Of a stretch of DNA of 64,000 nucleotides, positions 29,545-33,980 are shown piece by piece (position 1 is the first letter of the stretch; the number at the start of each line of letters is the position of its first letter). This DNA is from a virus, in IMG/VR virus record IMGVR_UViG_3300027899_000800, positions 1-64,000 of that record; one strand, given 5' to 3'. The translations under genes were made by a program, and so were the position numbers. Below the pieces are notes generated by a model. The model did no database searches. It saw only the letters and a list, made by a program, of their open reading frames with translations, and was not told where the DNA came from.

Positions 29545-29988
29545 ATGACACATTTATCTCATTGGACAACAGATCCAATCGACATCTTTTGGAAGAATTT
29601 TTTCGACCAAAACAGCAAATTTCAAAATACAATTGATACTAAAATCAACTATCCAGTTGATATTTACGAAACAGAAAACGGGTTACGATTTGAGCTCGCA
29701 GTAGTTGGTCTAGACAAAGAAGATCTAGATATACAAACAGAATCAGATACATTAAGGATTAAACACGAAAAAAAGGAAAGTGATATTTCACCTGAGGCTT
29801 ACTATCAAAAAGGTATAGCTAGGCGTTCATTTGACTTAGCGTGGAAGATATCTTCAAAACTTGATTTAAGCAAATTAGATGCTTCATTAGATAAAGGATT
29901 ATTAGTTATTGATATTCCTTATTCAGCTGATAAAGCACCTAAAAAAGTTGAAATCAAAATCAATTCCAAAACCTTATTACAAGGATAA
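29545..29988 (+). CDS. Small heat-shock protein, Hsp20/alpha-crystallin
   Basis: A 147-residue holdase chaperone. The alpha-crystallin domain runs from NYPVDIYETENGLRFELAVVG to LVIDIPYS, with LRIKHEKKE and a RSFDLAWKI strand, near residues 35-130. The C-terminal anchor is a weak IxI-like KVEIKI. The gene has its own leader and strong SD and is bracketed by an inverted repeat. Its base use is slightly richer in C and G than its neighbours. It starts a chaperone block with groES and groEL. Confidence 0.85.
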   Translation: MTHLSHWTTDPIDIFWKNFFDQNSKFQNTIDTKINYPVDIYETENGLRFELAVVGLDKEDLDIQTESDTLRIKHEKKESDISPEAYYQKGIARRSFDLAWKISSKLDLSKLDASLDKGLLVIDIPYSADKAPKKVEIKINSKTLLQG

Positions 29989-29995
29989 ATAAAAC

Positions 29996-30014
29996 GAGAC
30001 CTACCAAAACTCTG
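29996..30014 (+). repeat. Right inverted repeat flanking hsp20
   Basis: GAGACCTACC-AAAA-CTCTG, the inverted partner of 29465-29483. It lies 7 nt after the hsp20 stop and 2 nt before the next start. Confidence 0.75.
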
Positions 30015-30016
30015 TT

Positions 30017-30226
30017 ATGCCAATACCAACTCAGTTTATTTCATTTCAAGATAAACTTTTTATTTTAAAACGTCGTGTTATAGACGATCCTAAATACACA
30101 GGCGAACCATTAGATATTATGATGAAATGGTTAGGATCAAATAAAGTTTTAAGAAAAGATGGTTATTTATTTTTTCTAGAAGAAATAGAAGAAGCTGAAG
30201 TGCTTGGCTACTATACAAAAAATTAG
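30017..30226 (+). CDS. Hypothetical protein, 69 residues
   Basis: A small acidic-ended protein, MPIPTQFISFQDKLFILKRR..., with a predicted alpha/beta pattern. It lies between hsp20 and groES. No recognised family. Confidence 0.6.
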   Translation: MPIPTQFISFQDKLFILKRRVIDDPKYTGEPLDIMMKWLGSNKVLRKDGYLFFLEEIEEAEVLGYYTKN

Positions 30227-30249
30227 TATATTAATTAAAATAAAGTATT

Positions 30250-30540
30250 ATGAGTAATTTAAAACCATTAAATGGAAACATTGTTATTAAGCCATTAGAA
30301 GAACAAGAAATGACTTATGGCAATATCGTAATTCCCGATATGGGAAAAGAAAAACCAGAAGTAGGACAGATAATTTCAGTGAGTGATACTTACAATTGGC
30401 ATACAGGTGAGTATGTTAAAAGTAAACTCAAACCTGGACAAACAGTATTGATACCTAAAATGGGAGCAGTATCATTTGGATTAGACGGAGAAGATTATTA
30501 TATAACTAAAGAATCAGAAATATTAGCAGTTTATGAGTAA
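30250..30540 (+). CDS. groES: Co-chaperonin GroES-like
   Basis: A 96-residue Cpn10. It starts LKPLNGNIVIKPLEEQEMTYGNIVIP and continues with EVGQIISV, LKPGQTVLIPKMGA and a final YYITKESEILAVYE, the usual GroES strand order. The mobile loop near residues 18-32 (TYGNIVIPDMGKEKP) is present. Its stop overlaps the groEL start by 8 nt, so the two are coupled. Confidence 0.88.
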   Translation: MSNLKPLNGNIVIKPLEEQEMTYGNIVIPDMGKEKPEVGQIISVSDTYNWHTGEYVKSKLKPGQTVLIPKMGAVSFGLDGEDYYITKESEILAVYE

Positions 30541-32203
30541 AATAATAGAATATAACCAAGACGCAAGACAAAAATTAGCTGATGGAGCTAAAAAATTATC
30601 CGACGCTGTTTCATCAACATTAGGTCCATTTGGTCGTAATGTTATTATTGAGAAAACAAATGAGTTACCTCAATCAACTAAGGATGGAGTTACTGTAGCT
30701 AAATCAATTACTTTAAAAGATCCAATTGAAAATATTGGCGCTGAAATTGTTAAACAAGCAGCTATTAAAGCAGCGAATACAGCTGGTGATGGTACAACAA
30801 CTACTACTTTATTAGCTTATAATTTAATAAATGAAGGTTTAAGTAGTGTTAGAGCAGGTTCAAACGCTGTTGAAATTAAAAAAGGTATTGATGCTGCTGT
30901 TAAACAAGTAGTTAGTGCTTTAAAAGAAAATAGTAAAGATATCTCATCTGAAGACCAATTAAAACAAGTAGCTACAATCTCAGCTAATAATGATGAATCA
31001 ACAGGTGAATTAATAGCTACTGCTATTGAGAAAGTAGGTAGAGAAGGAGTTGTTGCTATTGAGGAAAGTAAAACAGGTGAAACATCACTTGAAGTAGTTG
31101 AAGGTATACAATTTGATAAAGGTTATAAATCACCTTATTTTGTTACTAACAATAATACAATGCAATCTGTATTAGAAGATCCATTTATATTAATTTATGA
31201 TGGTCGTATAACAACAGCAGCTGAGTTATTAAATGTACTTCAAAAAGTAAATAGTGAAAATAAATCATTACTTATTGTAGCAGATGATATTGATGGTGAA
31301 GCATTAGCAACTCTTATTGTTAATAAAATGAGAGGTATTGTTAAAGTATGTGCTGTTAAAGCACCTGACTTTGGTGAACGTAAAACATTGTTATTAGAAG
31401 ATTTAGCCATCATAACAGGTGGTCAAGTTATATCTAAAGATAAAGGTTTAAAACTAGATAAAATGACTGTAGCTCAGTTATCATCTTATTTAGGTATAGC
31501 TAGAACAGCAACCATAAGTAAAGAAAAAACAACTATTGTTGATGGTAAAGGAACTGAAGAAGATATATTAACAAGAGCAGAGGAAATTAAAGTACAAATT
31601 GATAATGCTCAATCATTCTTTGAAAAAGAAAAATTACAAGAACGTTTAGGTAAATTAATTGGTGGAGTAGCTATTATCAATGTAGGTGGCAATAATGATA
31701 TTGAATTAAAAGAATATAAAGATAGAGTTGAAGATGCTTTATTCGCTACACGTGCCGCTGTTGAGGAAGGAATACTACCAGGTGGAGGTGCTGCTTTATT
31801 ATATGCTAGAGAAGGTATTAGTTACACTAAAACAGATAGTGATGATTTTAATACTGGTAAAAAAATAGTATATAAAGCATTATCTGCTCCGTTTATAAAA
31901 ATATTATTAAACGCAGGTTATGATAATCCAAGTTGGTATATATATGAATTAGGTAGGACATCATTAGATTTAAATACTGACATATATGATAATACGTGGT
32001 TAGGATATGATTTAAAGTCTGAAACAATTATTAATATGCTTGATGCTGGTATATTAGATCCAACTAAAGTAGTTCGTTTAGCGGTTGAAAACGCGGCTGC
32101 AGTAGCAGGTACTATATTAACAACTGAAACTGTGATATATGAAGAACCAACCAAAGAAAAGAAAGAAGAGGATGGGATGGGTAATATGATGGGAATGATG
32201 TAA
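30533..32203 (+). CDS. groEL: Chaperonin GroEL
   Basis: A 556-residue full-length Cpn60. ATP-site features are SSTLGPFGRNVIIEK, TKDGVTVAKSI, AGDGTTTTTLLAY (conserved Asp) and VEEGILPGGGAALLYA. The C-terminus ends GNMMGMM, like the flexible GGM tail. With groES it would form a phage-specific folding chamber. It is followed by a strong bidirectional terminator. Host capture is possible, though codon use matches the phage. Confidence 0.95.
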   Translation: MSKIIEYNQDARQKLADGAKKLSDAVSSTLGPFGRNVIIEKTNELPQSTKDGVTVAKSITLKDPIENIGAEIVKQAAIKAANTAGDGTTTTTLLAYNLINEGLSSVRAGSNAVEIKKGIDAAVKQVVSALKENSKDISSEDQLKQVATISANNDESTGELIATAIEKVGREGVVAIEESKTGETSLEVVEGIQFDKGYKSPYFVTNNNTMQSVLEDPFILIYDGRITTAAELLNVLQKVNSENKSLLIVADDIDGEALATLIVNKMRGIVKVCAVKAPDFGERKTLLLEDLAIITGGQVISKDKGLKLDKMTVAQLSSYLGIARTATISKEKTTIVDGKGTEEDILTRAEEIKVQIDNAQSFFEKEKLQERLGKLIGGVAIINVGGNNDIELKEYKDRVEDALFATRAAVEEGILPGGGAALLYAREGISYTKTDSDDFNTGKKIVYKALSAPFIKILLNAGYDNPSWYIYELGRTSLDLNTDIYDNTWLGYDLKSETIINMLDAGILDPTKVVRLAVENAAAVAGTILTTETVIYEEPTKEKKEEDGMGNMMGMM

Positions 32204-32537: not shown

Positions 32538-32762
32538 ATGGTTTGGTATATTTACATTGTTAGTATTGTATATTGTATATGGAGAATGGCTAAAGGATAC
32601 AAAAAATCATTTGGCGAAGGAAATCCAATAGGTCCAACACCAGGACTAGAAACAATATTTATCTTTATTTTTGCTCCTGTATTAGCTCCGGTAGATATTG
32701 TTCTAACTTGGATTAGAAGAATTAAGGAAAGTAATGAGGATAGAAGAAATAAAATATTTTAA
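32538..32762 (+). CDS. Small membrane protein, 74 residues
   Basis: An N-terminal membrane helix (residues 2-17), a polar loop and a second hydrophobic stretch (about 40-58) with a charged tail. It has its own TTGACC promoter and runs up to the tRNA-like element. Function unknown. Confidence 0.6.
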   Translation: MVWYIYIVSIVYCIWRMAKGYKKSFGEGNPIGPTPGLETIFIFIFAPVLAPVDIVLTWIRRIKESNEDRRNKIF

Positions 32763-32766
32763 TAAT

Positions 32767-32923
32767 TGTCAGGTGGTGAAAGGATGTATACATCGGTAGA
32801 CACACCCACTCGTCTCGTGGGCGCAGAATTTGAAATAGGTAGATGGATATGGGTTGACCACAAAGCCGGCTATTTTGTTCACTACTGAATCACTGCGTGG
32901 AGGTTCGACTCCTTCCCTGACAG
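32767..32923 (+). ncRNA. tRNA-like RNA with giant variable arm
   Basis: A cloverleaf can be drawn from perfect stems. Acceptor TGTCAGG/CCTGACA (32767-32773, 32916-32922); D stem GTG/CAC (32776, 32801); anticodon stem CCCAC/GTGGG (32805-32809, 32817-32821); variable-arm stem CGCAG/CTGCG (32822-32826, 32893-32897); T stem GGAGG/CCTTC with TTCGACT loop (32899-32915). It departs from a tRNA in three ways. The D loop carries the palindrome GATGTATACATC, the anticodon-position loop is TCGTCTC with C where U33 is expected, and the variable arm encloses about 66 extra nt containing AAATAG/CTATTT. Length is 157 nt. Confidence 0.6.
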
Positions 32924-32983
32924 CAACCCGTCGGAAGCTCATCATGGCCTGAGTGAGATGAAAACGCGGATATCGGGCCTTAT

Positions 32984-33067
32984 GCCTGGATGTTGGAATG
33001 GTATACAAGTTTGACTTAAAATCAAATGAGCTGAAAGCTCGTGTGGGTTCGAGTCCCACTCCAGGTA
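32984..33067 (+). tRNA. tRNA-Leu (anticodon UAA)
   Basis: A canonical type II tRNA. Acceptor GCCTGGA/TCCAGGT (with G1-U72), anticodon stem TTTGA/TCAAA with loop CTTAAAA (anticodon TAA), long variable arm GAGC-TGAAA-GCTC, T stem GTGGG/CCCAC with loop TTCGAGT, discriminator A. CCA is not encoded. It reads UUA, a very frequent Leu codon in this AT-rich genome, so a translational benefit is likely. Confidence 0.95.
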
Positions 33068-33114
33068 CATATGAAAGATTAGTAGTCTTTAGTATCTATC
33101 AAATATTTATTGAT

Positions 33115-33531
33115 ATGAATAAAGATATAACTAAACAACAGTTCATTGAAATATGTAATAGAAATTTAACTATGGCTAAAGCAGCTGCTGAGTTAGGATT
33201 ACATTTCAATACATTCAAAAAATATGCTATTGAATATAAATGTTATAAACCTAATCAGTCAGGTAAAGGAATAAAGAAAAACATTCCTGAGAGAATTTCT
33301 AATCTTAATGATTACTCTTCACGATCTAGTGTTCGTAAAGTAGTAATAAATAAGAATCTTATTCCATATGAGTGTAATAATTGTGGAATCACAGAATGGG
33401 AAGGTCAGAAATTATCTTTACATTTAGATCATATTGATGGTAACAATTGGAATCATGATTTATCTAATTTAAGATTTCTTTGTCCTAATTGCCATTCACT
33501 GACTGAAACATATACTGGGAGAAATAAATAA
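33115..33531 (+). CDS. HNH endonuclease with N-terminal helix-turn-helix
   Basis: A 138-residue protein. I choose the ATG at 33115 because the upstream part of the frame lies in tRNA-Leu. An N-terminal helix-turn-helix (TMAKAAAELGLHFNTFKKYA) is joined by NQSGKGI to a C-terminal HNH zinc finger: CNNCGITEW, HLDHIDGNNWNHDLSNLRFLCPNCHS. The catalytic DH and Asn are present. Such free-standing HNH proteins are often homing endonucleases. Its position between tRNA-Leu and tmRNA suits that. A relative lies at 56592. Confidence 0.85.
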   Translation: MNKDITKQQFIEICNRNLTMAKAAAELGLHFNTFKKYAIEYKCYKPNQSGKGIKKNIPERISNLNDYSSRSSVRKVVINKNLIPYECNNCGITEWEGQKLSLHLDHIDGNNWNHDLSNLRFLCPNCHSLTETYTGRNK

Positions 33532-33561: not shown

Positions 33562-33965
33562 GGGGGTAACTGGAATCGATTCATAATCGGAGGGTAGTAT
33601 CACATGCAGAGGGAAGGCGTTTAAACCTCTTTAATATCCATGCTAAACAATAACTGACGAAATGTCAACAATGACCTTCGATGACTTGATGTCATTCGTA
33701 GGCGCCGACTACGCTTTAGCAGCCTAGTCCGCATCGGGTGGTAGAGAACCTAGGAACAGAACACAACAGCGAGTCGTACGCTAAAGAGACGGCATCCGGA
33801 CGCATATTGCGAGCCGTAGTTTTCTCTGTAGTCATAAAACAGAGTGGTGGATTCGGACCATAATCGGTCAGCCCTTACTGATCAAAAGTAATTTAGATCT
33901 AAGCATGTGAGACGTTGGTATTATTGTTCATTATGAAGACGTGGGTTCGAATCCCACTACCTCCA
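33562..33965 (+). ncRNA. ssrA: tmRNA (transfer-messenger RNA)
   Basis: About 404 nt. The tRNA-like ends pair GGGGGTA with TACCTCC, including the G3-U70 wobble that marks alanine identity, with discriminator A. The T arm is GTGGG-TTCGAAT-CCCAC and the 5' domain has the typical TGGAATCGAT. The tag frame reads from about GAC 33656 to TAG 33725-33727. It begins DEMSTMTF and ends GADYALAA, about 23 residues, with the ALAA degron of tmRNA tags. Pseudoknot regions fill 33730-33880. CCA is not encoded. It would rescue stalled ribosomes and mark nascent proteins for proteolysis. Confidence 0.92.
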
Positions 33966-33980
33966 CTAAAACACTAAATT

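Follow-up and report, generated by a model that had tools for sequence, protein, structure and literature searches.

A tRNA-like RNA of Bacteroidota chromosomes and presumed phages that keeps aspartate identity letters but not the letters required by the ribosome

What kind of gene forms every stem of a tRNA cloverleaf, lacks the uridine that a decoding tRNA requires at position 33, and carries a variable arm of 76 nt? The question is raised by a plus-strand element at positions 32767-32923 of the window, i.e., the whole 64,000-nt stretch analysed here, which makes up almost the whole of a 65,795-base virus record (IMG/VR record IMGVR_UViG_3300027899_000800) and whose genes include a family-B DNA polymerase, a clamp-loader ATPase, a GroEL-type chaperonin and Hsp20. 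The initial annotation had seen in this element a tRNA-like RNA under selection, and had offered a mimic of tRNA, a decoy for host nucleases, or a tRNA invaded by an insertion as its possible nature.

The anatomy given there, including the coordinates and the five tRNA stems, is correct. The RNA spans tRNA positions 1-73 (172.5 bits with covariance model R1) and begins with the 5' acceptor strand UGUCAGG at 32767-32773, in which U1-A72, G2-C71 and U3-A70 are near-invariant family-wide; it pairs 7/7 with the 3' strand (TGTCAGG/CCTGACA), and CCUGACA, the discriminator G73 and C74 occupy 32916-32924 (C74 itself is at 32924), CCA not being encoded. The D stem GTG/CAC is paired 3/3, and the D loop does hold the 12-nt palindrome noticed earlier, a hairpin GATGTATACATC at 32783-32794 that is an insert of phage copies only, D-loop palindromic hairpins being missing from most chromosomal and a few phage copies. 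The anticodon arm (32805-32821; CCCAC-TCGTCTC-GTGGG, 5/5 paired) presents the loop UCGUCUC at 32810-32816, with C at position 33 as had been pointed out; G34, U35, C36 and C38 of this loop are family-conserved, and C33 and U37 are abnormal. The variable arm at 32822-32897, as oversized as described, has a base stem of 5 bp and internal hairpins, with a conserved asymmetric internal loop, an upper stem and an apical module (covarying helices 4-7); within it lie the conserved apical motif GGGUUGACCAC (32851-32861; present in phage and many chromosomal copies, not in short-armed ones) and the apical palindrome AGCCGGCU (32864-32871). The T arm GGAGG-UUCGACU-CCUUC (32899-32915) is paired 5/5 with one G.U, so that the acceptor/T-stem geometry is 7/5, and the D arm is most similar to that of tRNA-Leu.

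Standard tools do not see this gene: Aragorn did not report the element at 32767-32923, and an Rfam covariance search with it gave zero matches up to E = 5. The fold of the single sequence, which had been taken as proof of selection, turned out to be insufficient by itself (z = -1.55, with 17/200 shuffles folding equally well), and the question was therefore settled by comparison across homologues, which proves the structure. An exact 3'-end pattern led to L001, another phage, whose copy of the RNA shows compensating changes in several of its stems; many contigs with both motifs approximately 47 nt apart then came from two motif scans of IMG/VR; and a structure grammar yielded 66, later 77, distinct phage sequences, so that at least 77 distinct phage homologues exist. 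As the pattern GGTTGACCACAAAGCC on its own also matches unrelated IMG/VR sequences, either the structure grammar or a covariance model was always demanded.

Pairing is retained in 97.8% of the cells of 66 aligned phage homologues, as opposed to 39-50% when the partner strand is slid; double-changed cells number 324 (101±9 in shuffles), and 23/37 base pairs show changes on both sides. Although these homologues had been pre-filtered on acceptor, anticodon and T-stem pairing, the variable-arm helices, which played no part in the selection, also covary. Covariation was found independently among 46 matches of a whole-genome search (three of them truncated), whose alignment is 91.8% paired and has 217 double-changed cells versus 57±10, albeit having been fitted to the covariance model and thus being biased towards the structure. 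Moreover, the bases of the tertiary contacts (U8/A14, A15/U48, G18 G19, T54 T55 C56 A58) do not vary among the 112 sequences aligned, and hence the molecule is an L-shaped tRNA. Related phages were also inspected for loss of the stems, which are conserved and covarying, leaving the proposal of a selected RNA strongly supported. This comparative evidence establishes a true RNA gene with a conserved tRNA fold. A decayed tRNA gene with insertions, or a chance fold, might have been suspected from the lack of U33 and the failure of Aragorn and Rfam to recognise the element; with compensatory changes in the hundreds and such broad conservation, the probability of this reading is negligible, covariation in both the 66-sequence and the 46-sequence alignments having ruled it out.

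Where do these RNAs come from? No carrier was found among 50,697 records of cultured phages, searched both by DNA and by the neighbouring ORF, and the hosts are therefore inferred from the chromosomal relatives together with one Bacteroidota metagenome bin (L256) that has a phage-type copy. Among the matches listed in a GTDB pattern scan, nearly all are Chitinophagaceae chromosomes, scoring 68-127 bits with the covariance model; Aragorn found no tRNA whatever in 22 of the chromosomal loci matched by the model, and an Rfam search of the chromosomal loci gave no match up to E = 1. Whole-genome search scores are bimodal, with matches of at least 85 bits representing the family and those of 61 bits or less being approximately 85 nt long and resembling ordinary class II tRNAs; at the former threshold, 40/395 Bacteroidota genomes carry the family, in one to four copies that are often arranged in tandem. 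With the first covariance model, 71/99 Chitinophagaceae and 54/120 Chitinophagales genomes were positive, about a quarter of the Chitinophagaceae genomes being without a match (some genomes are incomplete and the filters were strict). The chromosomal copies have variable arms from short to very long (some so shrunken that the whole RNA measures 109-125 nt), and most are without a D-loop insert. The idea of a tRNA invaded by an insertion is not supported: rather than being a recent insert, the long arm is conserved and covaries in chromosomal relatives throughout Bacteroidota. An Lrp/AsnC-type regulator gene adjoins the RNA gene divergently, 142-224 nt apart, in 24/26 sampled Chitinophagaceae loci, and such a gene (identified by Pfam) adjoins it in 20/30 loci drawn from the phylum, being absent from the 1.5-kb flank in the other 10/30; no consistent partner enzyme was seen near the RNA gene in the loci examined. 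No earlier description of the RNA was found in the open-licence literature, and, on these sequence comparisons, the tRNA-like RNA belongs to a previously unrecognised family of Bacteroidota chromosomes and presumed phages.

Which letters of the anticodon loop and acceptor does this family keep, and which does it lose? To avoid circularity, the loop was scored only in sequence sets that had not been selected by it. In the chromosomal set (n = 46, three truncated, mainly from the whole-genome search), GUC occupies positions 34-36 in 45/46 sequences, the exception being a single copy with C34, and C38 is present in 46/46, while position 33 may be U, C, A or G and position 37 U, C or G; in the phage set reached via the neighbouring ORF (n = 41 distinct), GUC is found in 41/41 and C38 in 39/41, and positions 33 and 37 again drift. 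Position 37 is mostly U and sometimes C (G in 2/46 chromosomal and A in 2/41 phage sequences), and A38 or U38 occurs in some phage copies (7/45 in alignment A3). G73, G2-C71 and U1-A72 are invariant in the 43/43 full-length chromosomal sequences. The published aspartate identity set consists of G73, G34, U35, C36 and C38, with G1-C72 and G2-C71 as helpers, and U1-A72 lets an amidotransferase turn Asp-tRNA into Asn-tRNA, which G1-C72 prevents (PMC9976931). All five identity letters and G2-C71 are thus present in the family, and the helper pair G1-C72 is replaced by U1-A72, the published GatCAB determinant. In these alignments, the letters read by aspartyl-tRNA synthetase are kept, whereas those required by the ribosome (U33 and a purine at 37) are not.

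As Chitinophaga and 14/14 large phage tRNA arrays have a canonical tRNA-Asp as well, the tRNA-like RNA is not the decoding tRNA-Asp, and replacement of the canonical copies by it is ruled out. GatB is encoded by 23/23 carriers, yet also by 18/23 non-carriers, and its presence is therefore permissive rather than diagnostic; in phage tRNA-Gln, an ordinary GatCAB-type substrate, U1 is nearly always found. The possibility that the RNA provides the only route to Asn in hosts without AsnA/AsnB is not supported, for 20/23 carriers have AsnB (asparagine synthetase B).

The explanation favoured here, to which we would give an even chance of being right, is that of a tRNA paralogue that takes no part in decoding, is probably charged with aspartate, which may further be amidated to Asn, and acts away from the ribosome. 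Its 5' end would be produced by RNase P (in the phage by a cut directly behind the upstream ORF's stop codon), with CCA being added afterwards; by established rules, aspartyl-tRNA synthetase would then charge it via G34 U35 C36 C38 and G73, and the same rules predict that it would be excluded from decoding because it is without U33 and a purine at 37. U1-A72 may allow GatCAB to convert Asp to Asn on the RNA, and the charged molecule might, at a guess, serve or be sensed away from the ribosome, controlled by the amino-acid-responsive Lrp/AsnC-type regulator next to it; phages could conceivably carry it for the same reason as they carry tRNAs and a tmRNA, i.e., for a function to be sustained during infection, their versions having gained self-complementary D and variable-arm hairpins through which two molecules would probably pair. 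Several points speak against this explanation: U1-A72 stands where G1-C72 helps the E. coli AspRS, a long variable arm with G73 would suit SerRS too, and the phage copies with A38 or U38, the chromosomal copy with C34, the AsnB of most carriers, the lack of a consistent partner enzyme nearby, the phylum loci without the Lrp/AsnC-type neighbour and the Chitinophagaceae genomes without a match also count on this side. The full scenario, in which the non-decoding tRNA serves Asp-to-Asn conversion (or some other use) off translation under its own Lrp/AsnC-type regulator, and has been captured by phages in which it homodimerises via two hairpins, is offered tentatively and is rather unlikely to hold in all its parts.

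Other readings account for some of the same data. SerRS recognises the long variable arm and G73, not the anticodon, which is how allo-tRNAs are charged (PMC7609411), and the RNA might accordingly be imagined as a serine-accepting class II tRNA relative whose anticodon loop is kept for some other reason; an anticodon-blind synthetase, however, leaves unexplained why 34-36 and 38 are kept while 32, 33 and 37 drift, the acceptor domains of allo-tRNAs are 8/4 or 9/3 rather than 7/5, and the reading appears quite improbable. Use in translation as a working tRNA-Asp variant would fit the anticodon GUC, G73, C38 and the full L-shape, but neither U33 nor a purine at 37 is kept, the first pair is U1-A72, and a canonical tRNA-Asp is found alongside, so that this is very unlikely indeed.

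The initial annotation's mimic or decoy may be pictured as a tRNA-shaped bait whose anticodon loop or acceptor end would absorb a tRNA-cutting toxin or defence nuclease directed against GUC-type tRNAs, so that the real tRNAs are spared; it is possible for the phage copies, which lie in tRNA islands, whose fast-changing D and variable-arm hairpins wear the face of an arms race (the D inserts being wholly different between close relatives), and for which a precedent exists, the evasion of tRNA-targeting defences by phage tRNAs being known (PMC10264068). Nevertheless, most of the family is chromosomal and syntenic, and a decoy would explain neither the vertically kept copies next to an Lrp/AsnC-type regulator gene nor why the kept anticodon-loop positions are those read by aspartyl-tRNA synthetase; nor does a bait need U1-A72, G2-C71, G73 and the L-shape contacts, all of which are invariant or nearly so. 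We consider it improbable as an explanation of the family, and have a similarly low expectation of an RNA with a structural or regulatory role to which charging does not matter, its tRNA fold serving for stability and 3' processing while its variable arm (with self-pairing loops in phages) does the work. The conserved internal-loop and GGGUUGACCAC modules of that arm and the palindromic phage tips (27/29 and 27/51, where shuffling gives 1.0 and 2.3 on average, and 0/55 in chromosomes) speak for such an RNA; on the other hand, the arm is the most changeable part of the molecule and shrinks in some chromosomal copies, the acceptor and anticodon-loop letters are what is kept, and the predicted dimer gain of phage copies barely exceeds that of chromosomal ones.

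The palindromic tips themselves distinguish phage from chromosomal copies. A perfect palindrome of at least 8 nt is found in 27/29 distinct segments at the variable-arm site (shuffled maximum 6) and in 27/51 at the D-loop site (shuffled maximum 8), whereas the chromosomal hairpins, scored by their best 4-nt loops, show no palindromic 4-nt tip and mostly end in GCAA, UUCG, GAAA or other loops. The phage palindromes vary in sequence (AGCCGGCU, GCUUGCAAGC, GCUCGAGC, GCUAGCUAGC, GCCGGCCGGC, GCGUACGC, CCUAGG-centred ones and more), and the D inserts change entirely between close relatives; since different palindromes occupy the same site, self-complementarity itself seems to be under selection. The likeliest reason would be the pairing of two RNA copies, though a DNA-level cause may also be responsible, and the computed dimer energies, with a predicted gain just slightly larger in phage than in chromosomal copies, differ too little to be used. 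One phage group (L082, L098, L110, L112 and relatives) carries a D insert of another kind, in which a 7-nt loop (CUCAGUU/CUCUGUU/CUAUGUU) is conserved and takes the place of the palindrome.

A further peculiarity of the phage copies is a 74-aa ORF at 32538-32762 (+), the stop codon of which ends 4 nt before the RNA and whose product, by its amino acid sequence alone, is probably a two-helix membrane protein. Homologues of 65-93 residues lie directly upstream of the RNA in 53/77 distinct phage copies, with the spacing from stop codon to RNA usually being 0-5 nt and the stop codon falling inside the acceptor stem in six cases; in the reverse search with the protein alone, the RNA follows in the same orientation in 50/80 loci. 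The ORF has no Pfam and no PHROG match, and in some relatives without the tRNA-like RNA it precedes an ordinary tRNA (L466). Release of the RNA by RNase P would leave the mRNA of the upstream protein ending at its stop codon. tmRNA acts on mRNA ends of this kind, and a link between this junction and the tmRNA of many such phages is put forward as an idea.

The phage copies are located in tRNA islands, and a tmRNA gene is found near the RNA in 43/103 phage loci. In the window, the normal tRNA-Leu reported right after the element is indeed there, a canonical tRNA-Leu(UAA) at 32984-33068 (+), 60 nt downstream, with the tmRNA gene at 33562-33966 (+), approximately 640 nt downstream of the tRNA-like RNA; an HNH endonuclease ORF (33115-33531), likely a homing endonuclease, separates tRNA-Leu from the tmRNA gene. 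The tmRNAs of the window and of L001 (2103-2487) have long tags that resemble each other, DEMSTMTFDDLMSFVGADYALAA and AEELSSFTFEDAMSFVGADYAVAA. The segment from the element to tRNA-Leu (32927-32985; CCGTCGGAAGCTCATCATG...GATATCGGG) has a close match in phage contig L019, and upstream, at 29545-32203, the phage encodes Hsp20, a GroES-like ORF and the GroEL-type chaperonin consecutively. Several phage loci hold further non-coding segments 3' of the RNA: one close to GCAGGCCACGGGATCGAAAACTCAGGAATGCC at L001 1173-1204, with the same text in L006, L011, L017, L053 and L075, is possibly another unlisted phage RNA (it gave a sub-threshold abiF RNA match in L001, 30.5 bits versus 37, not seen in the other five), and another, GACACGCACGACAACTTGGAATGGTGCACGCTGAAC..., recurs in L040, L063 and L070. 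Two weak, over-long tRNA matches (104-124 nt) at L011 1224-1347 and 1409-1512 are possibly further tRNA-like RNAs.

The rejection of this gene by tRNA finders has left it unannotated, although most of the Chitinophagaceae sampled and roughly one in ten of the Bacteroidota genomes sampled carry it, and it provides a test case for a more general question: do bacteria maintain aminoacylated tRNAs that never decode? The phage versions, in which one and the same loop holds differing palindromes, give an exceptionally clear evolutionary signal for RNA self-pairing. If Asp/Asn charging is true, the family would stand for an off-ribosome amino-acid pathway or sensor that is worthwhile cargo for phages.

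How does the family compare with known systems? The phage T4 species 1 RNA (rnaC) is a stable RNA of 139 nt whose gene lies next to a cluster of phage tRNAs and whose 3' part resembles a T arm. Its location and this 3' part are shared features; no kinship was detected, as covariance model R2 matches the T4 tRNA-Leu (34.5 bits) and not rnaC. ROOL and GOLLD are phage RNAs near tRNA islands that form homo-oligomers through loop contacts (PMC12286853), an analogy to the putative self-pairing of the phage copies; they are, however, far larger and have no tRNA fold, and neither the window element nor the chromosomal loci belong to a known Rfam family at the thresholds given above. The Bacillus cereus pseudo-tRNA tRNAOther is a chromosomal tRNA-like RNA inactive in translation (PMC3399842), as is proposed here for the family, but its host belongs to another phylum. 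Allo-tRNAs (Mukai et al. 2017, reviewed in PMC7609411) resemble the family in being class II, non-canonical and genome-mined, some with a GUC anticodon, but have Ser identity and an 8/4 or 9/3 acceptor/T stem; with its 7/5 geometry, the tRNA-like RNA is not one of them. To tRNA-Asp(GUC) it is similar in the anticodon, C38, G73 and G2-C71, and differs in the class II long arm, U1-A72 instead of G1-C72, a tRNA-Leu-like D arm and the lack of a fixed U33 and of A37. The tRNAs and tmRNA encoded by phages share its islands, but are canonical and found by standard models, as are canonical decoding tRNAs in general, with which the family has the cloverleaf and the L-shape contacts in common (invariant in the 112 sequences), and from which it departs at U33 (C in the window; U, C, A and G family-wide) and at the purine of position 37 (mostly U).
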